Assembly: GCA_938005745.1 (NCBI GenBank)
Contig: CALLMM010000002.1
Coordinates: 165,000-228,999, forward strand
Direction: 5' to 3'
DNA: 64,000 bases
DNA from: an uncultured Chthonomonadales bacterium
GTDB lineage: Bacteria; Armatimonadota; Chthonomonadetes; Chthonomonadales; CAJBBX01
Shown: positions 16,966 to 42,100 of the stretch, in pieces
Layout: each line of letters opens with the position of its first letter
Numbering within the stretch: the first letter of the stretch is position 1
The notes under the pieces: model-generated
What the model was told of the DNA's origin: nothing
Database searches by the model: none
Seen by the model: the letters and a program-made list of their open reading frames with translations, nothing else
Made by a program: the position numbers and the translations under genes

Positions 16966-17922
16966 TCAGGACAGAAGCCCCAGACGCAGGGCGCAGTCCC
17001 GCAGCAGTTCTTGCTCCCAGGCGGGACGCTGCGGATTGAGGGGATGGGTGCGGTCGGTGGAGATGCGCCCCAGCAGATGTAAGAAGACGGCGGCGGAGTG
17101 CTTGTAGGCGGGAACCGGCGCGCGAAACGCCAGATTTCCCAGATGCTGCAGTGCATCGGTGAGCGCGTAGTATGCCGGGTCGCCCTGCTCCCAGGCGCGG
17201 TCCCGCTCCGCAAACTTCTCCGGGCAGAAGGTCGCCAGCCCCAGCAGGTAGTCGCTCCCGTACTCGATCATGTTGATCCCCAGATCGTTGCCCGTATAGA
17301 TGCGAAACTCCGGGCGCAGCCGATCTCGCAGCGCCAGACGCCGCAGCTCCGTTGCGCGATCCAGTGACGAGTGCTTCAGCCCGGTCAGGGGCGGGATCTC
17401 CATCAAGCCGGCGATCGTCTCCTCGTCGAAAATCTCGCCGTTGGGTGCGAACATCCTTCCCAGTTCGAAGCCCAGAACCTCGGGAACCCCCTCGCAGACC
17501 GCCCGATAGACGGCGATCTTCTCTGAAGGCGTCATCCCGTGCAGCCGAGTGGTCTGGAACAGGATCGGCGTGCCGCCATACGCCGCGATCTGCTCGATCT
17601 CGCCTCTGTAGAGGGAGACGATCTCCCCCTCACGCCCCTCCACGTAGGCTCCCGCCACAAACGGCGCGCCCTTCCCCAGCGCCTCCCGCGTGATCTGCAG
17701 CACCCGGCGCTTCTCGGCGTCGGTCAGGTAGTTGGCGTAACCGGTGTCCATATTGACGGCGTTGGTCAGTCCGGCGCGATGGGTCGCCTGAAGATGCGCG
17801 GCAAACTCCTCCTCCGCGATCCTCCCCTGCGAATCGTAGGGCAGCAGCGCGGCGGCGATGCCCTTCACCTTCCGGCGAACCTGTATCCGCTGCTGCCAGC
17901 TTTCGATGGTCTCCATGATCAC
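16966..17922 (-). CDS. Dihydrodipicolinate synthase/N-acetylneuraminate lyase-like family protein
   Basis: DapA-type TIM barrel; GLKHSSLD (Schiff base Lys) and YTGNDLGINMIEYGSDYLLG. Confidence 0.8.
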   Translation of the reverse strand: MIMETIESWQQRIQVRRKVKGIAAALLPYDSQGRIAEEEFAAHLQATHRAGLTNAVNMDTGYANYLTDAEKRRVLQITREALGKGAPFVAGAYVEGREGEIVSLYRGEIEQIAAYGGTPILFQTTRLHGMTPSEKIAVYRAVCEGVPEVLGFELGRMFAPNGEIFDEETIAGLMEIPPLTGLKHSSLDRATELRRLALRDRLRPEFRIYTGNDLGINMIEYGSDYLLGLATFCPEKFAERDRAWEQGDPAYYALTDALQHLGNLAFRAPVPAYKHSAAVFLHLLGRISTDRTHPLNPQRPAWEQELLRDCALRLGLLS

Positions 17923-18119
17923 TCCGGGTCCAGCGCGTGCGCCTCAAACCGCTCCAGTTCGCGCCGCAGATGCGCCTCCATCTCCGAGTCGCCTTCGCGA
18001 TGCGCCTCGGCGAGCGCGGTGGCGAGGAGTTCGTAGCCCTCGACAATGCACTCCTCCCTCGCCAGCTTCCGCGCCCGCGCTCCGATTTTGAAGGCAACGA
18101 TCTGTTTGTAGTCCGGCAT
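17919..18119 (-). CDS. Small hypothetical protein, 66 aa, overlapping the downstream DHDPS-family gene
   Basis: MPDYKQIVAFKIGARARKLAREECIVEGYELLATALAEAHREGDSEMEAHLRRELERFEAHALDPE; 4-nt overlap suggests translational coupling. Confidence 0.6.
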   Translation of the reverse strand: MPDYKQIVAFKIGARARKLAREECIVEGYELLATALAEAHREGDSEMEAHLRRELERFEAHALDPE

Positions 18120-18145: not shown

Positions 18146-21100
18146 CTACAGGGCAGGGGGCGGGCTGTCCGCGCCCGCGCCGCCCGCGCCGCCTCCGCGC
18201 CTTCCGCGCCCGCGTCCGCCGCGGCGTCTGCGACGCCGCGATCGCCCGGGAACGGGGGCGGTTGCGGCAGTCCCGGACGCGCCGTTGGCGAGCGCCTCCT
18301 CCTCTGCCGCATCCGCCAGCGCCTCCGCGCGCGCCTCCTCAAAGAGCGCCGCCACGCCCTCGATCTCTATCCCATCTTCGGCGGCGACGAACTCAGGGGT
18401 CTCAACCGGCTCCGGCGCTGCGGTCTCGATCACCTCCGCCACCGACGCCTCGATCAGCACCGCAGGCGGCTCCGCGCCGGAGGGACGCTTGCGGCTGCGC
18501 GGACGCTCCACGCCCGAAAGCCCGATCTTATGCATCTCCTCCAGCGAACCCACGAAATAGGTATAGGTTGAGCGTCCGCGCAGGAAGGTATGATACTCCC
18601 GCAGGCTCTCCCCCACCAGCCGCCCGCCATTCAGATCGTACAGCGCGGTGTCGGGAGGCAGCAGCAGCGAGCGATTGCCGTCGCGGGTAGTGTGGATCGT
18701 CAGCCAGCCGTTGCCCGCATAGACGAAGTCGTCCATGCCGCCGGTATACAGATGTACTCCCGCATAGCGGCACAGTCCGCGCAGCAGGTCCGTCGTCAGG
18801 GTCGGCTCGCCGATGAAGACGGAGCGCCAGTCCGCCAGACGGCGCACGCCCATCGAAGGCTGCCCGGTCTGCAGATACTCCGCCAGCACGGTCAGTTCGG
18901 GGTTGTCATCGTCAATATAGAAGGAGGGATTCAGCCGCTCGCGCACTCCCAGCGTCTTCTCCTGCAGCCGTTCGGTGATCGGATGGCGCGTCTCCACCAC
19001 CCGCGAACCGACCTCCGTGCTCCAGGACTGCTGCCGCAGGGTCATGCCGATCAGATCGTGGATGCCCTCTTCGGAGCGTCCGCGCTCATCGCAGACCCCG
19101 ACGGCGTAGAGCCATACGAGCGTTTTGCCGCCGTTCTGCAGCCGCTCCTTGATCGCGGCGCGCTGCTCCGCCGGCATACGGTAGGGCGTCAGGAAGAGAT
19201 AGAGCTTCGCGTCGGTCGGGAAGTGGCGCGCCGTCACGTCGCTCTGCAGGTAGAAGCCGACCGACGCGCCGCAGCGCAGGATCGCCTCTCGCTGTCCCTG
19301 CAGCAGCCGGCGCAGGAAAGCCTCTCCGCGCTGAATGTGCAGCAGACTGCGTTCGTCCACTAGCGCCACCACCTCCGGCGAGCGCAGCCGGCGATGCGGC
19401 AGGGTCCGGCGGTACAGATCGGAAAACTTTCCGATGCGCTCCCAGATATCCTCCGCGTCCAGCCACCCCTCTCCCCAGAGGTCCATCCATCCGACCGCGG
19501 TCTGATGCGCCAGCGCCTGCCCCATCGCCCGCAGATGCGCCTGCTCGGTCTGCGCGCGGTTCTCCATGCGGGGGTTGTAGTCGTCGGGGGTCGCATTGCC
19601 GCCCTGCGCCAGGTGGGTCTTGGTATCGTCCTCCGACAGCCACAGCTTGCCGTGAATGGCGAACGAATCGACCGGACAGGGGAACGCTCCGGCGGCGCCG
19701 GGAAGCCGATCGCGATAGGAGGGCGGTCCCGCCACGATGTCAATGGAGGAGGCGGACAGCAGCCTTCCCAGCGCGAGATGCCCGGAGAAGGTGTGCCCGA
19801 ACTCGAAGGTGTAGCCGTAGCAGACGGAGACCAGCGCGCGATGATTGGTCGCCTCTTTCACCACCTTCGAGAGCGAAATCAGCCGCTCCGCCATCATCTC
19901 GGAGGTGTACTCCATGAAGTCAATCCAGCGGCGCTCCCGGCGCGGCTCAAAAAAAGCGGCGTCCGGGCGGGGCTGCGCGGGCAGCGGCGGGATTTCGGCG
20001 GTGTAGAACTGCACGGCTCCATCGTTCCAGGCGGCGCGCAGCGCGACCTCGTTCTTATATTTGCGCCGGAGCCAGCCGCGAAACGCCTCCCGATTGGCAT
20101 AGGAGCGGTCGTAGCCGTCCTGCGCCGGATGGAACCACTCGCCCCGCTCCAGATGATAGCCGATGACCCGGGAGCCGTAGGGCGTGCGCTGTATATGTTC
20201 AATCAGAAGGGTCAGGGAGTTTTCGACCTCCATCCAGAAGCGGTCGGAGGCGATGGAGGGATCGTCCGTCGGTCCGTCCAGATACTGGTTCACCTCATGG
20301 GGATACTGCTTCTGCCAGCCCTTTGCCGGGACGAAGACCAGACGGGGCATCAGGTAGGCTTTCGGGTTGGCATCCATCAGCGCCTGCAGGCGTTCGTCTA
20401 CATTCTCATAGGCGGTGTCATCGGGCGGAATCGGACAGATCAGTTCGACCAGCGTGGAGCAGAGATGGACCCCGGCGGCGGCGGCGCGCTGAATCTCGCC
20501 GCTTACGCGGCGCGTCTGCTTCTGTCCGTCAAGATTGCCAAAGAAGAGGATCGGCGGCGTTGGCGCGCCCTCAATCAGCAGTTCTGGCAGCCCCCGGCGG
20601 GTAACGATGCGCGTTCCGGTCAGCGCAGGCTCGGTCTCCTCCGTCGTCTTGCGGTCGGCGCGCTGCCGGCGCGATGCGGATCGGCTCTCCCGCTTCGTCC
20701 TGACGGAAGGCTGCGGCTCTCCCTCCGGCTCCGCCGGTTCCGCGCTCTCAGCGGCGGGACCCGCCTCCGGCGCGACGGCGGGCGTCTCCGCCGGAGCCTC
20801 CGCTGTCTCCGCCGGGGAGACAGAGGCGTCGAGGACCGCCTCTTCGACCGCCGGCTCCTCCGCGACCGACTCCGGCATCTCAGTCTTCTTCCGGCTGCGG
20901 CTGCCACGCCTGCGCGCCGGCTTCGCTCTGTCAGCCGTCTCTGCGACCGCCTCCGCCGGCGTCTCTGCCGCCCCATCGGTCGCGGCCATCTCCGCAGCGG
21001 GCGGAGCTGTCTCCGCAACAGCCTGCGCCCCCTCCACGACCGCCTCTGGCGGAATCGCGAACCCCTCTGCTGGCGGCGTCTCTGCCTCCGCTGCAGGCGC

Positions 21101-21643
21101 AAGGGTCTCCGGCGCGGAGATCGGCTCCGCCGTCGGCGGCGGCTCCTGCGCGGCGGCGGGCGTTTTCCGGGAGCGCGATCTCTGCCCGCTCCGGCGCGCG
21201 AGGCGCGCAGGCGCGGGCGTTTCGGAAGAGGGGATCTCCGGCGCGCCGCCCGCCTCCGCCGCGGATTCCGGTTCGGGAGCCGCGACAGGCGTTTCGACTT
21301 CGGGCAGCGGCGCCGATTCCGACGAATCGGCGGGAGCGGCGGTTTTACGAGAGCGAGAAGAGCGAGAAGAGGAGGAGCGGCGTCTGGCAGGCGCGGAAGC
21401 GGGTTCCGCAGCGGAATCTTCCGCACGCGGTGCGTCGTCCGCCGGTGGAACCGCGCCGCTTCCGGCGATGTCCACCGGGGACTCGTCGTTCATCATAACA
21501 TGTTTCTCCTGACTGATAACCAGCGCGCGCGTCCTGAGCGACAACGCAGGACGCAGCAGCGACAAATCGTTTCGAACCGGCTCGCCTGAGGGGAGCGCCC
21601 CTTCCCTGAGACTCTCAACCAGCGGCTCAGACGGCTCCGTCAC
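18146..21643 (-). CDS. GH42/beta-galactosidase-like protein with disordered SR/APE-rich N-terminus and Arg-Gly-rich C-terminus (start may be MMNDESP at about 21494)
   Basis: Core TIM-barrel-like segments VIGYHLERGEWFHPAQDGYDRSYANREAFRGWLRRKY, SFAIHGKLWLSEDDTKTHL and a C-terminal LLLPPDTALYDLNGGRLVGESLREY; N-term repeated R(S)RSRK blocks; C-term RSRRRRRRGGRGRGRRGGGAGGAGADSPPPAL. Confidence 0.78.
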   Translation of the reverse strand: MTEPSEPLVESLREGALPSGEPVRNDLSLLRPALSLRTRALVISQEKHVMMNDESPVDIAGSGAVPPADDAPRAEDSAAEPASAPARRRSSSSRSSRSRKTAAPADSSESAPLPEVETPVAAPEPESAAEAGGAPEIPSSETPAPARLARRSGQRSRSRKTPAAAQEPPPTAEPISAPETLAPAAEAETPPAEGFAIPPEAVVEGAQAVAETAPPAAEMAATDGAAETPAEAVAETADRAKPARRRGSRSRKKTEMPESVAEEPAVEEAVLDASVSPAETAEAPAETPAVAPEAGPAAESAEPAEPEGEPQPSVRTKRESRSASRRQRADRKTTEETEPALTGTRIVTRRGLPELLIEGAPTPPILFFGNLDGQKQTRRVSGEIQRAAAAGVHLCSTLVELICPIPPDDTAYENVDERLQALMDANPKAYLMPRLVFVPAKGWQKQYPHEVNQYLDGPTDDPSIASDRFWMEVENSLTLLIEHIQRTPYGSRVIGYHLERGEWFHPAQDGYDRSYANREAFRGWLRRKYKNEVALRAAWNDGAVQFYTAEIPPLPAQPRPDAAFFEPRRERRWIDFMEYTSEMMAERLISLSKVVKEATNHRALVSVCYGYTFEFGHTFSGHLALGRLLSASSIDIVAGPPSYRDRLPGAAGAFPCPVDSFAIHGKLWLSEDDTKTHLAQGGNATPDDYNPRMENRAQTEQAHLRAMGQALAHQTAVGWMDLWGEGWLDAEDIWERIGKFSDLYRRTLPHRRLRSPEVVALVDERSLLHIQRGEAFLRRLLQGQREAILRCGASVGFYLQSDVTARHFPTDAKLYLFLTPYRMPAEQRAAIKERLQNGGKTLVWLYAVGVCDERGRSEEGIHDLIGMTLRQQSWSTEVGSRVVETRHPITERLQEKTLGVRERLNPSFYIDDDNPELTVLAEYLQTGQPSMGVRRLADWRSVFIGEPTLTTDLLRGLCRYAGVHLYTGGMDDFVYAGNGWLTIHTTRDGNRSLLLPPDTALYDLNGGRLVGESLREYHTFLRGRSTYTYFVGSLEEMHKIGLSGVERPRSRKRPSGAEPPAVLIEASVAEVIETAAPEPVETPEFVAAEDGIEIEGVAALFEEARAEALADAAEEEALANGASGTAATAPVPGRSRRRRRRGGRGRGRRGGGAGGAGADSPPPAL

Positions 21644-21721: not shown

Positions 21722-21869
21722 ATGGGGAGAAGAGGTGCCGGACGCCGCCGTCTGCGGGCAGGAGGTCATTTTCCGGACAGCGAAACAGGCGTCAGAAGCG
21801 CACGCACCTTTTCCGCCTCTATTGCAGAGACCGTCTCGCAGACGCATCCCACCATGAGGAGCAGCACCA

Positions 21870-24724
21870 TGAAACGTTTTTCGCTACCCGTTTTGATCTG
21901 TCTGTCTCTGTTGGCGTCGTTGGCGGCGGCAGCCGGCGCGCAGGCGTCCGCGCCGAAGACCTTGACCTACGCCGATATTCTCCGACAGTTGACCGACCTG
22001 GACCGCCTGACCCGCCTGCATCCCGGATTTAAAGCAGGACAGTTCTCCAGCTGGGATCGCAACGGACGCGAGGTCTGGGGCGCAAACGGCGATGCCGGGC
22101 ACTACCTCCGCGAGGAGCCGAACGGCGAAGCCGTCATGATGGAGATAGACGGACCGGGCGTCATCTATCGCGTCTGGTCGGCGAATCCGCAAGGCAAGAT
22201 CCGCCTCTACCTCGATGGAGACGCGCAGCCGACCTATGAATGGGACTTTGACGCTCTCTTCAACGGGAGCACGCCCCCCTTCCTCAAACCGCTGGTCTAC
22301 AAGCGCGGCGGGCAGATGTCGGCGTCGGACTGCTACGTCCCCATTCCGTTCCGCAGGAGCATCAAGATCACGGCGGACCGCCGGCACGGTCAGTACTACC
22401 ATTTCAACTACCTGCTCTACCCGAAAGACTGGACGCTTCCCTCGTTCCGGCTGCCGCTCACGCCGGAGGAGCAGACCGAGCTGCAGCGGGCGGCGGAGGT
22501 ATGGAACGCCCCCGGACGCGACCCGAAACCGACGCTGGAGGGGCAGACGACCCTGAAACAGACGATCACTCTCCAGCCCGGCAAAACCGCGACGCTGGCA
22601 AACCTGAAGGGACCGGGCATGGTGCGCGCCATCCGCGCCCGCGCCTCCTCCGAACAGCGCTACTTCTGGCGCAAACTGGTTCTGCGCGGCGTCTGGGACG
22701 GCGCGAAATCGCCGCAGATCCTCACTCCGCTCGGCTCCCTCTTCGGGTTCGACTGGGAGACGGCGGAGTACGGCTCGCTGATCGCGGGATGCCAGAACGG
22801 TACCGCCTACTTCCACTACCCGATGCCCTTTCGCAGATCGGGCAGACTGGAGCTGATCAGCTATCTCTCCCGACCGGCGCAGGTGGAGATCGAAATTGAC
22901 TGGGCGCCGGTGAAGTCGCTGCCGGAAGATACGCTCTACCTCTTCGCGCGCTGGCGGCAGGAGCTGGACTTCATGCCCTTCGAGTTCACCTTCCTGGAGA
23001 CCGCCGGAAAAGGGCACTTTGTCGGGGTCTCCATGCCGATAGATCACCCGCTGCCCGGCTGGTGGGGCGAGGGCGACGAAAAGATCTGGGTGGACGATGA
23101 CGACTTCCCCCCCTGGATCGGGACCGGATCGGAGGACTACTTCGGGGATGCATGGGGCATTCGCTATCTCTCCGCGCCCAGCTTCGGCTGCAGTCTGCAG
23201 AAGGGCAATCGCACCTGCAACTATCGCTGGCACTTCATGGACTTCGTTCCTTTTTCGAAGCGGTTCCGCATGTCCATCGAGAACTACGGACCCAACGGCG
23301 TCGGTCCGCGCGGTCACTACGCCTACGCCTCCACCGCCTTCTGGTATCAGGCGGAGGCGACTCCTCCCTTGGAGCAGCTGCGGGGCGTAACCTACACCGG
23401 CGGTCTCGATCCGGCGCAGAAGCCCTCTCGCTACGAGTATAACCCGAACGTCTTCGGTCCGCTGGATGCGAACGCCCTGCGCACCTACGGACTGTCCATC
23501 CCGTTTGCCCTGGAGGCGGAGGAGCTGTTCCGGGGCAGGATCGTTACCGACGCGGACCGCGCCTACGAGTTCAATAAAGAGCGCGCGGTCGATTTCGGAA
23601 CCGTCAAAACCGGGCAGCGACTGTCGGCAGGCACGCTCAGGATTGAGGAGGGGCTGGTCTACTACCCGAAAATCTATCTCGCGCCGGAAGCGGGCGCGGC
23701 GGAGGTGACGCTGGAGATCGGCGGCAGACGCCTGGAGATCCTGCAGCGCGAGGGAAAGCATATCCTGGAACTGAGCGGCGCCTATCTGCCGGCGGGCGAA
23801 CACCCGGTCTCCCTGATCGCCGTTTCGGACGGGCGCGCGATTGTGGACTGCATCCAGTTGCAGCCCTCTTATCGTTCCGGAGGCGCAATGGAGGCGGAAG
23901 ACCTGCCGATCGTCCGATTCAGCGACGGAATGGAGAAGCCGCACGCCAGTCCGCCGATGAAGGGCGCCAGCGCGGGGCGGATCCTCGAAGTCCACGCGAC
24001 CGCCCCCGGACAGGGCGTTACGCTCCGCTTCGACCGCTCTCCCGGAAAGCCCTACGCGCTCGGCGTCCGCACGATGCGCGGACCGATGGGCGGGATCATT
24101 CAGGCGTTTGCGGGCGGCAAGCCGCTCGGACCGGCGTTCGACATCTATGCGCCGCAGAAGTCCGCAGGCGAGGTCATCTTCCCGCTCGGTCCGATGCCGA
24201 CCGACACCCGTGAGGTGGAGATCCGCGTCGTCGGCAAGAACCCGCAGTCGCAGGGCTATCACTTCGGGCTGGACTACTTCCGCTATGAGCCGCAGATCCT
24301 CGGACCGGAGAGCGCGGAGGGCGTCTGGGCGATGGTGCTGGGCGTGCGCGGAGGCGGCTACCAGATTCAGGACCTGGGACCGGACTGGTCGCAGGGGCAT
24401 CACCTGTGGATTGCGCCGTCGAGTGAAAGCGCAGAGGCGCAGATCGCGCTGGAGATCCCAAGCGCCGGCGAATATGAGATACTCGTTCGCTACACCACCT
24501 CCTGGGACTACGCCATCGTGCAGACCTATCTCGACGGGCAGGCGATGGGCGATCCGACCGACTGCTACACCCCGGAGGTGCGCCTGCGTGATCCGCTCAC
24601 TCTGGGGCGCGTCTCCCTGACCGCCGGGCGACACATTCTGCGGTTCCGCGCCGTCGGGAAGAACGCCTCCTCCGCCGGATACCTGATGGGGATAGACCAT
24701 ATCACCGTCCGCCCGGCAAAATAG
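21870..24724 (+). CDS. DUF2961 (GH172-family) secreted protein with C-terminal beta modules
   Basis: Signal peptide MKRFSLPVLICLSLLASLAAAAGAQA; DUF2961 hallmark GTGSEDYFGDAWGIR plus NGDAGHYLREE. Track start at 21713 is upstream of the signal peptide. Confidence 0.9.
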
Positions 24725-39115: not shown

Positions 39116-42100
39116 ATGCGTTACGCGATACTTGGGATCATCGGATTCTCTCTGCTGGCGGGGCTGCGCCCGGCGGAGGGACAGACACGCCCCCCTGCGC
39201 CGCCAAGAGCGCAGGAGCGTCCGCGCACGCAGAATCCGCCTCCGGCGCGCCCGCCCCGACCGCGTCTCATTGTTCCGGGCATCGGGGGCGCGCTCTCCGG
39301 CAGCCGCGCCGCCGCGCCCGAAGGTCCTGTGGTCGGTCCGCCGGGTCCGCGTCCGAACTTCCCCGCGCCCCCTCCCGGTCCCTTCCCGGCGCTGCCCGGA
39401 ACCGGGCAGGTCGCGCCGCCGGGCGTAGCGCGCCCCCTCAATCCCTTCCTCTTCGGCATGAACGTCGCCTGGGATGAGGCGGGCGGCTACGCCGGCTGGG
39501 ACCGCGACAACGGCGTTCGCGCCCGGCGGCTGGCTCAACTGCTCAAGGAGGCGGGCGTAACCAACGTGCGCGTCCGCCTGCGCTGGCAGGAGATCGAGCC
39601 GCAGCGCGGTCAGTACAACTGGCGCGCCACCGACCGCTTCCTGCGCTTTCTCGCCGATCAGGGACTGCGACCCGTCTGCCTGCTTGCCGACATTCCCGCC
39701 TGGGCGAACGAGGCGAACCCATCGCCCCAGCTCTACGCCGATGTGGGACGATTCTCCTTCGCGATCGTGAGCCGCTATCGCGGGCTGGCGCAGCACTGGG
39801 AGTTTCTGGACGCGCCCGAAGGAAAGCCGAATGCGCCGCGCCCCTTCACGCGGGAGCCGCGAGTCTATCTGCAGATGCTGCGTTCCTTCGCCGAGAACGC
39901 CCGCCGCGCCAATCCCGCCGTCCGCATCGCCATCGGACGCCTGAAACCGGAGCAGGCTCCCTTCCTCGCCGCGCTCTACGCCGCCGGAGCCAGTCCCTAC
40001 TTCGACGCCGTCGCCCTGCATCCCGGCAGCGGTCCCGGCGGACTCGATTTCGACTGGATTGACCGCTGCCGCAGTCTGATGCTCAACAACAACGACGCGG
40101 CGAAGACCGTCTGGATCACCGAATGGGGCTGGACGATCCCCCCGGATCAGCCCGACTCCCTCAGTGAGGCGCAGCATGCCCGCCTGATCCGCAATACGCT
40201 GATCTCCATGCAGGCGCGCCCCTATATCACGCAGTCGAGCTACCAGATCTTCAATACGACCGCCGCCCTGGATCGCAGCCTGCGTCTGTTCAGTCTCCTC
40301 TCCTCCACGCTGATCCCGCGCGCAGGCTACGCCGCCTTTCGAGAGGTCGCCCTCGGTCAGCCGATGCCGACCGCCACGCCGGGTTTCCGCCGGGTTCCTC
40401 TGATCAGCGGGTTTCCAATCGGAGAGGAGTCGGGCGGGAGCGGCTCCGGCTACCGTGTGCGGGGCATCCCGGCGAACGTGACGGTCGAAGCCAATCGCCC
40501 CGGCGAGCCGCTGCCCCCGCTCTGGGAGGGGTATGTTCTGGGCGGCGATCCGGGCATTCTGTCCGGCTTTGAGGGAGCCGTCCCGCGCCTGCAGGCGGTT
40601 GGCGCGAAACTGGTGCGGATGGACCCCTTCCCCAATCCCGGCATGGTCGCCGCCTCCGGGGGCGCGGCTCCGGCATCGGCGCAGCCCGCCGACTTCGACG
40701 CCTCCCGTATAGATTTCCGCTACGCCGATGCCCTCGTTGATCTGCTGGCGCGGGCGGGCGCGAAACCGATGTTCAACTTCGCCACCATGCCGACCGCGCT
40801 CTCCTCCCCGACCGGCAACCCTCGCCTTCCGCGCAGTCCGCAGGAGTGGGCGGGATTCGTCGGGGCGGTAGTCCGACGCTACAACCTCGAGCAGAAGCGC
40901 GGCATCGTCTACTGGGAACTCTCCCACCAGCCCAACACGGGTGACTTTACGCTTGCGGAGTGGCTGCGCTTCTATGAGACGTTCGCCCGCGCCGTGACTG
41001 CCGCCGATCCGAACGCAAAGGTGGGCGGTCCGGCTGCCGCCGCCTTCGGGGAGGAGTGGTTGAGCGGACTGGCGGACTACTGCGCGAAGAACAGCGTGCC
41101 GCTTCACTTCCTGAGCTGGCAGGCGTACAACCAGTCCCCGGCGGAGTACGCCCGTCAGGCGGAGACGGCGCGCGGCATCCTGCGCCGCCATCCCTCGCTG
41201 GGCAACGTCGAGTTGATCCTCGGAGAGTGGAACGCCAGCGCCGCCGCCTCGCCCGACAACGACGGTCTGTTTGCCGCGTCTCATGCGCTGTCGGTGGTGG
41301 AGCAGCTTGCGAAGGCTGCGCCGGTGCGGTCGCTGTTCTATGCGGTGAAAGACGGTCCCAATTTCCGCGATCCGGGCGTTCGGTTCTGGGGGCGCTGGGG
41401 AATGCTGACCTATGACAACCGCCCGAAAGCGGTCTACAACGCCTTCGTCATCCTCAGGCGCATGGAGGGGCTGCGCCTGCCCGCTGTCAGTGATGACAGC
41501 CTGATTCGCGTCATGGCGACGCGCGGTCCCAACAGCGTGCGCGTGCTGCTCTGGAGCTACCCGACCGACCCGAACCGCAGCCAGCTCGCCGATACGCAGG
41601 TGCGTCTGCAGGTGAGAAGCCTGCCCTGGACGACCGGAACGCGCGGCGCGCAGTGGCTGATAGACACGCTGCGCTCCAACCCGCTGGACAACCCGGCAAG
41701 CGAGAACCTGGCGCAGATCGCCTCGTTCCAGAGCGCGCCGGGCGATCTGGAGATACCGATCATCCTTTCGCCCTACGGCGCGACGCTGATCGAGCTGACC
41801 CCGGCGCGCTCCCTGCCGGTTGAGGTCGCCGTCGAGACGCCGCGATATCTGGTCTACAGCGGGGCGTCGTTCCCGCTGATCTCTACCGTTCGCAACCTGT
41901 CCGCACAGCCGCAGACCGTCGCCTTCACGCTGACCGGCAGCGACCCGGCGGTGCTGAATCCCGCCGGAATCCGCACGCGGCTGACGCTTCGCCCCAACGA
42001 GGTGCGCCAGGTTCGCTACAATATCCCGGCAACGCTCAACCGCGCCGACACGCAGCAGTTTTTCCAGGTGGCGGCGGGAGAGGCGACCGCCAGCCTTGCG

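Follow-up and report, generated by a model that had tools for sequence, protein, structure and literature searches.

The RNase E of alpha-proteobacteria carries a disordered C-terminal region of alternating charge patches (PMC12691583; PMC10412687), and in Caulobacter the Arg-rich charge blocks of this enzyme drive its RNA-stimulated condensation into BR-bodies (PMC10412687; PMC12691583). Our searches of open-access papers turned up none on a bacterial glycosidase that has an RGG tail or a disordered one. A 64,000-nucleotide stretch of DNA from an uncultured Chthonomonadales bacterium (the window) encodes a protein with charge-block tails, disordered by prediction, at both ends of a core that resembles GH42 beta-galactosidases in its predicted fold.

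Gene Structure and Layout

The ORF at 18146-21643 on the minus strand, described in a first-pass annotation of the window, is present and contains every motif quoted from it. Its first 49 codons (21497-21643) are a mechanical over-extension upstream of the real start, which is likely to be a double ATG at ~21496 (21494-21496/21491-21493) with AGGAG 9 nt upstream; the resulting N-terminus, MMNDESP, resembles the MTTDESP, MSNDESP and MTNDET of Chthonomonadales orthologs. With this start the protein has 1116 aa and an N-tail of 291 aa: the annotated long acidic Ala/Pro/Glu tail with basic blocks stands, but not its length of about 350 aa. The N-tail is followed by a core of ~705 aa and a C-tail of ~115 aa terminating in RSRRRRRRGGRGRGRRGGG. 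The parts are as follows.

18146..21496, minus strand: whole gene from the likely corrected start, 1116 aa plus stop (AGGAG before the double ATG; N-terminus kept in orthologs)
20624..21496, minus strand: N-terminal tail, residues 1-291, predicted to be disordered, with acidic Ala/Pro/Glu spacers and four Arg-rich blocks (pLDDT 28-37; block statistics)
21344..21385, minus strand: basic block 1, ARRRSSSSRSSRSRK, about residues 38-51 (sequence; block class conserved in orthologs)
21164..21205, minus strand: basic block 2, ARRSGQRSRSRK, about residues 98-111 (sequence)
20882..20929, minus strand: basic block 3, ARRRGSRSRKKT, about residues 190-205 (sequence)
20648..20701, minus strand: basic block 4, RTKRESRSASRRQRADRK, about residues 266-283 (sequence)
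18512..20623, minus strand: GH42-like folded core, about residues 292-995 (AlphaFold, Foldseek, profile against PDB GH42)
20138..20140, minus strand: Glu453, candidate acid/base, end of barrel strand beta-4, core E159 (conservation; AlphaFold strand 152-156)
19631..19633, minus strand: Glu622, candidate nucleophile, end of barrel strand beta-7, core E328 (conservation; AlphaFold strand 324-329)
18287..18358, minus strand: predicted helix 1047-1070 in the acidic C-terminal linker (AlphaFold, pLDDT ~46-70)
18197..18244, minus strand: C-terminal motif, RSRRRRRRGGRGRGRR, about residues 1085-1100 (R1089-R1095 nearly invariant; synonymous codons vary)

The Folded Core

AlphaFold models the core with high confidence (pLDDT 93, pTM 0.93) as a TIM barrel, a flavodoxin/amidotransferase-like (Rossmann-like) middle domain and a C-terminal beta domain. 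Its best 27 PDB fold matches in Foldseek are all GH42 beta-galactosidases (TM 0.61-0.71, E 4e-24 to 9e-21, identity 12-15%), followed by a beta-1,2-glucosyltransferase and then GH164. A profile of the family searched against the PDB gives significant matches to GH42 beta-galactosidases only, covering the barrel (best E 3.9e-9), and 28 of 44 family members match PF02449 at E <= 0.01 (best 3.8e-15). Taken alone, the window protein is under the Pfam cut-off for PF02449 (13.4 bits vs 21) and sub-threshold for ThuA (17.7 bits vs 33.4), and it has no match in NCBIfam.

Two glutamates, Glu453 and Glu622 (core 159 and 328), do not vary among 29 tailed orthologs, and their conservation is 90% or more in all 44 relatives. 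In the model Glu453 lies just past strand 152-156 (beta-4) and Glu622 inside strand 324-329 (beta-7), in core numbering; enzymes of clan GH-A carry their catalytic glutamates at the ends of barrel strands 4 and 7. The Asn that directly precedes the acid/base Glu in GH42 (NE) is absent, with G, A or R at this position in tailed orthologs. By its fold and profile matches the core is GH42-like, and the two glutamates make a plausible candidate catalytic pair. The annotated GH42-type domain is thus upheld by structure prediction, family profile and Glu pair, and the contrary outcome, a core of some other type, did not emerge; the weak points are the missing Asn and the score of the single protein in Pfam. 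A second GH42-like match in the window (39524-39721, plus strand; PF02449, E 1e-5, 26 bits) lies in a separate 1412-aa open frame.

The Disordered Tails

In the full-length AlphaFold model pLDDT is <50 across residues 1-291 and ~1000-1113, except in the helix at 1047-1070, and in 48 of 54 orthologous N-tails the basic residues cluster more strongly than in composition-preserving shuffles (p <=0.01); both results agree with the first description of the tails as disordered and charge-patterned. The median N-tail has 4 blocks, against 0.3 in shuffles, and next to the blocks G, S and T are enriched and E and D depleted. Spacing between blocks has a median of 48 aa and is more even than under random placement (mean CV 0.30 vs 0.55; 0 of 500 simulations), a comparison among N-tails that hardly align but come from related sequences, and are in that sense not independent. 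The N-tails are divergent in sequence and range from 177 to 431 aa; that of the window protein is 11% R/K and 18% D/E, and the tails are overall net neutral to acidic.

In the flanking DNA 12 of 454 background ORFs have at least 4 blocks. Contig-truncated copies of the tailed gene itself account for 11, and the other is a tail-less RNase E/G with its Arg/Lys clusters in the folded domain. The basic blocks show no enrichment of kinase sites (R-x(1,2)-[ST], 507 vs 513 +/- 18). Recent repeat expansion was rejected as their origin, since likeness among blocks is overall just slightly higher within proteins (30.8) than between them (28.1), with a clear difference only in some lineages.

Most Chthonomonadales orthologs have RRRRRRGGRGRGRR as their C-terminal block, with one RGG plus RG dipeptides; related basic ends occur in other lineages, for example KKRRRRGGRKHRKKRD in family f6. 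The genes span 47-73% GC and their synonymous codons vary freely. Since RRRRRRGGRGRGRR is kept with different codons over this whole range, neither base composition nor a frameshift nor a misread strand accounts for it, and by this codon comparison the motif is under selection at the protein level. As a genome-wide unique signature it was discarded: it fails in GC-rich genomes, in which a reversed control pattern is equally common. In the single-contig genome G015 the signature does hold, the DNA pattern for RRRGGRGR being present a single time and within the tailed gene.

Within the otherwise variable C-linkers, where the window protein has its helix 1047-1070, lie short lineage-specific motifs: (D)LxTLxAVLxMDI in 13 of 14 members of family f3, (S/T)L(D/E)ELLPxS in the Armatimonadia-type group, and a terminal PIIAVQWRR in Fimbriimonadales. 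Conserved islands within disordered sequence usually mark partner-binding sites.

Distribution and Origin

Homolog searches covered 61 genomes, then 121 sampled genomes of the phylum. Exactly one match of at least 576 bits was found in each of 56 of the 121, and after a clear gap came shorter paralogs that score no more than 547 bits; in the high-scoring group the open frames run from 736 aa (contig-truncated) to 1407 aa. The first-pass annotation had considered that orthologs might lack the tails, and they do not: all 53 complete tailed Armatimonadota orthologs have Arg/Lys blocks in the N-tail (2-8 each), and 50 of the 53 have one or two basic blocks in the C-tail. Relatives outside the tailed clade (n=21) have 0-1 N-terminal and 0 C-terminal blocks. 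In family f2 (L033, L034) the N-tail blocks are kept and the C-terminal basic motif is lost, a natural test of the role of the C-tail; in L035 this motif is diluted.

A quick tree was made of 89 cores, with proteins labeled "tailed" initially on their identity to the window core and this label afterwards checked by block counts. In it the tailed proteins form one side of a single branch (SH-aLRT 99), with the Chthonomonadales, Fimbriimonadia and Armatimonadia-type lineages nested inside. By this sequence evidence the tailed proteins are one clade of single origin, with one copy per genome. The tailed group also differs at its N-terminus. Within the first 60 residues its most hydrophobic 12-mer scores <=1.11 on the Kyte-Doolittle scale, bearing out the annotated absence of a signal peptide. 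Of the 21 tail-less relatives, 19 reach ~1.8-3.4, the level that a signal peptide or membrane anchor would give. The simplest reading of these patterns would be that export was lost once and the tails were gained once, and that the gene was inherited vertically from then on.

Gene Neighborhoods and the Separate RNase E/G

There is no phylum-wide conserved operon around the tailed gene, including with RNA-decay genes; its neighbors vary by lineage (HAD phosphatase, hisF, era, mtaB, fabF). In Fimbriimonadia and family f6 an HAD phosphatase of the PpaX/phosphoglycolate phosphatase group lies directly upstream, often overlapping, followed by the tailed gene and then hisF or era. An HAD-IA phosphatase (PpaX/Gph-like) directly before or overlapping the tailed gene was seen at 17 loci (L079, L091, L094, L099, L100 and L103 among them), which suggests that the two genes may be translationally coupled in these groups. 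Downstream of the tailed gene some f1 genomes encode MtaB, an enzyme that modifies tRNA, and some f3 genomes have fabF upstream and metK downstream; RNase G is adjacent (downstream) in only two close loci. The tailed gene is thus placed among housekeeping genes and not in a polysaccharide-use cluster, a setting that would fit a cytoplasmic role.

In the window, the tailed gene has directly downstream a 66-aa, probably helical ORF without a Pfam match (17919-18119, minus strand), which overlaps the start of a DUF993/DHDPS-like aldolase (16969-17922, minus strand). Divergent from the tailed gene is a DUF2961 protein with an apparent signal peptide (21869-24724, plus strand; E 4.6e-63).

The RNase E/G of Chthonomonadales is a separate protein, present in 21 of 21 genomes, and has no basic tail: it ends at its conserved domain in 11 of 11 loci complete at that end. 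The tailed protein, with its GH42-like core, does not contain the RNase E catalytic domain. In G015 the RNase E/G (L138) has a long acidic insertion in its N-terminal region (about residues 80-150), and no basic C-terminal tail.

Discussion

Our best explanation, to which we give a probability of roughly one half, is that the protein is a cytoplasmic enzyme or scaffold of glycosidase fold, whose multivalent Arg-rich tails tether it to RNA or to some other polyanion. It starts from the architecture, the disorder, the conservation, the single origin, the block patterning and the retention of two candidate catalytic glutamates; oligomerization, RNA binding, condensation, catalysis and partner recruitment would build on these. 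A GH42-like ancestor, normally secreted, would have given up its export signal and acquired disordered tails with charge blocks. As GH42 enzymes usually form trimers, the folded core probably oligomerizes; each particle would then present several N-tails with evenly spaced Arg-rich "stickers" and several RRRRRRGGRGRGRR ends. These may make multivalent contacts with polyanions, most likely with RNA: the spaced Arg-rich layout of the tails is of the RNase E type, so that the enzyme may be anchored on RNA or in a droplet-like body. The protein could in this way be concentrated on RNA, on ribosomes or in condensates, as alpha-proteobacterial RNase E is through its Arg-rich blocks. The core probably retains glycosidase-type chemistry, or at least sugar binding, for an intracellular substrate, and the lineage-specific C-linker motifs probably recruit partners. 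Points against this explanation are the charge of the tails, net neutral to acidic as a whole, the absence of RNA-decay genes from any conserved neighborhood, and the C-terminal motif that is lost in f2 and diluted in L035.

Arg blocks bind any polyanion, and an enzyme with a glycosidase fold and no RNA-decay operon around its gene might instead be held at the inner membrane surface, on polyphosphate or on an anionic sugar polymer that is its own substrate, RNA being irrelevant. We regard this as unlikely, if worth keeping in mind, since an RGG/RG-rich end together with patches of alternating charge is the hallmark layout of RNase E, and, for the membrane in particular, the N-tail is without a hydrophobic or amphipathic anchor. 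Rather more doubtful is the idea that the tails have no specific ligand and are generic solubility or spacer segments of a cytosolic oligomeric enzyme: the divergent sequence and length of the N-tails would suit it, but inert spacers would hardly be expected to end in a near-invariant motif, to keep their blocks evenly spaced or to hold short motifs conserved by lineage.

Still less probable is a nucleoid-associated protein whose Ala/Pro-rich basic-block tails form a linker-histone-type DNA tether for the enzyme. The Ala/Pro/Lys/Arg composition and the S/T adjoining the basic blocks speak for it, but the tail spacers are strongly acidic, as linker-histone tails are not, and RG-type ends are more typical of RNA-binding proteins. 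A sequence artefact (a frameshift, a wrong-strand ORF or GC-driven low complexity) has practically no chance of being the answer: long ORFs do overlap on the opposite strand and local GC is high, but the same architecture recurs in 53 complete orthologs, including genes at 47-55% GC, and the turnover of synonymous codons together with these orthologs rules out all three forms.

The reading as a tethered enzyme or scaffold has a more far-reaching version, in which the RNA-condensate scaffold of Armatimonadota would be this recruited glycosidase-fold protein and not RNase E: its tails would nucleate RNA bodies, its linear motifs would recruit partners, and a carbohydrate enzyme core as hub might connect sugar status with the turnover of RNA or with translation. 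The occurrence of a tail-less RNase E/G beside a tailed GH42-like protein makes a replaced scaffold worth testing and is not proof of it; we think this version improbable. What the locus offers is a glycosidase-fold core with charge-block disorder like that of RNase E, of single origin and in one copy per genome, in three large lineages of Armatimonadota. Neither the open-access literature nor the libraries that we searched gave a precedent for this architecture, and it supplies a concrete protein for two questions. Can proteins other than RNase E organize RNA condensates in bacteria? Is there an association between carbohydrate enzymes and RNA within the bacterial cell? The phylum has cultured members, so that both are testable.

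Among described systems, the RNase E of alpha-proteobacteria likewise joins a folded enzyme core to a long disordered region of alternating Arg-rich and negative patches, and the annotated likeness to RNase E-type tails is borne out by this layout (PMC10412687; PMC12691583). The Armatimonadota protein differs in its unrelated, GH42-like core and in having blocks at both ends; RNA-stimulated condensation has been demonstrated for RNase E, and the likeness here is one of sequence layout. The RRRRRRGGRGRGRR end is also similar to the RG/RGG RNA-binding tails of DEAD-box proteins, RNase E and eukaryotic RGG proteins, although most orthologs have a single RGG, with an Arg run before it and RG dipeptides after it, and no tri-RGG repeat.

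For the core, the tail-less paralogs of Armatimonadota, Verrucomicrobiota and Lentisphaerota are homologous (23-37% identity, Glu pair kept at 90% or more), but are without basic blocks, have mostly a signal-like N-terminus and often carry additional N-terminal domains. GH164 beta-mannosidase (6T5O/6T6G; TM 0.57-0.67) is the next-best characterized glycosidase fold class, and a weaker match than GH42 (E ~1e-15, identity ~11%). The GH42 beta-galactosidases themselves (for example 4UZS/4UCF, 3TTS, 1KWG) are at 12-15% identity, have the Asn before the acid/base Glu and, in the solved chains listed, measure ~640-700 residues, none long enough for such tails; they share with the Armatimonadota protein the three-domain fold over the whole core and the glutamates at strands 4 and 7.
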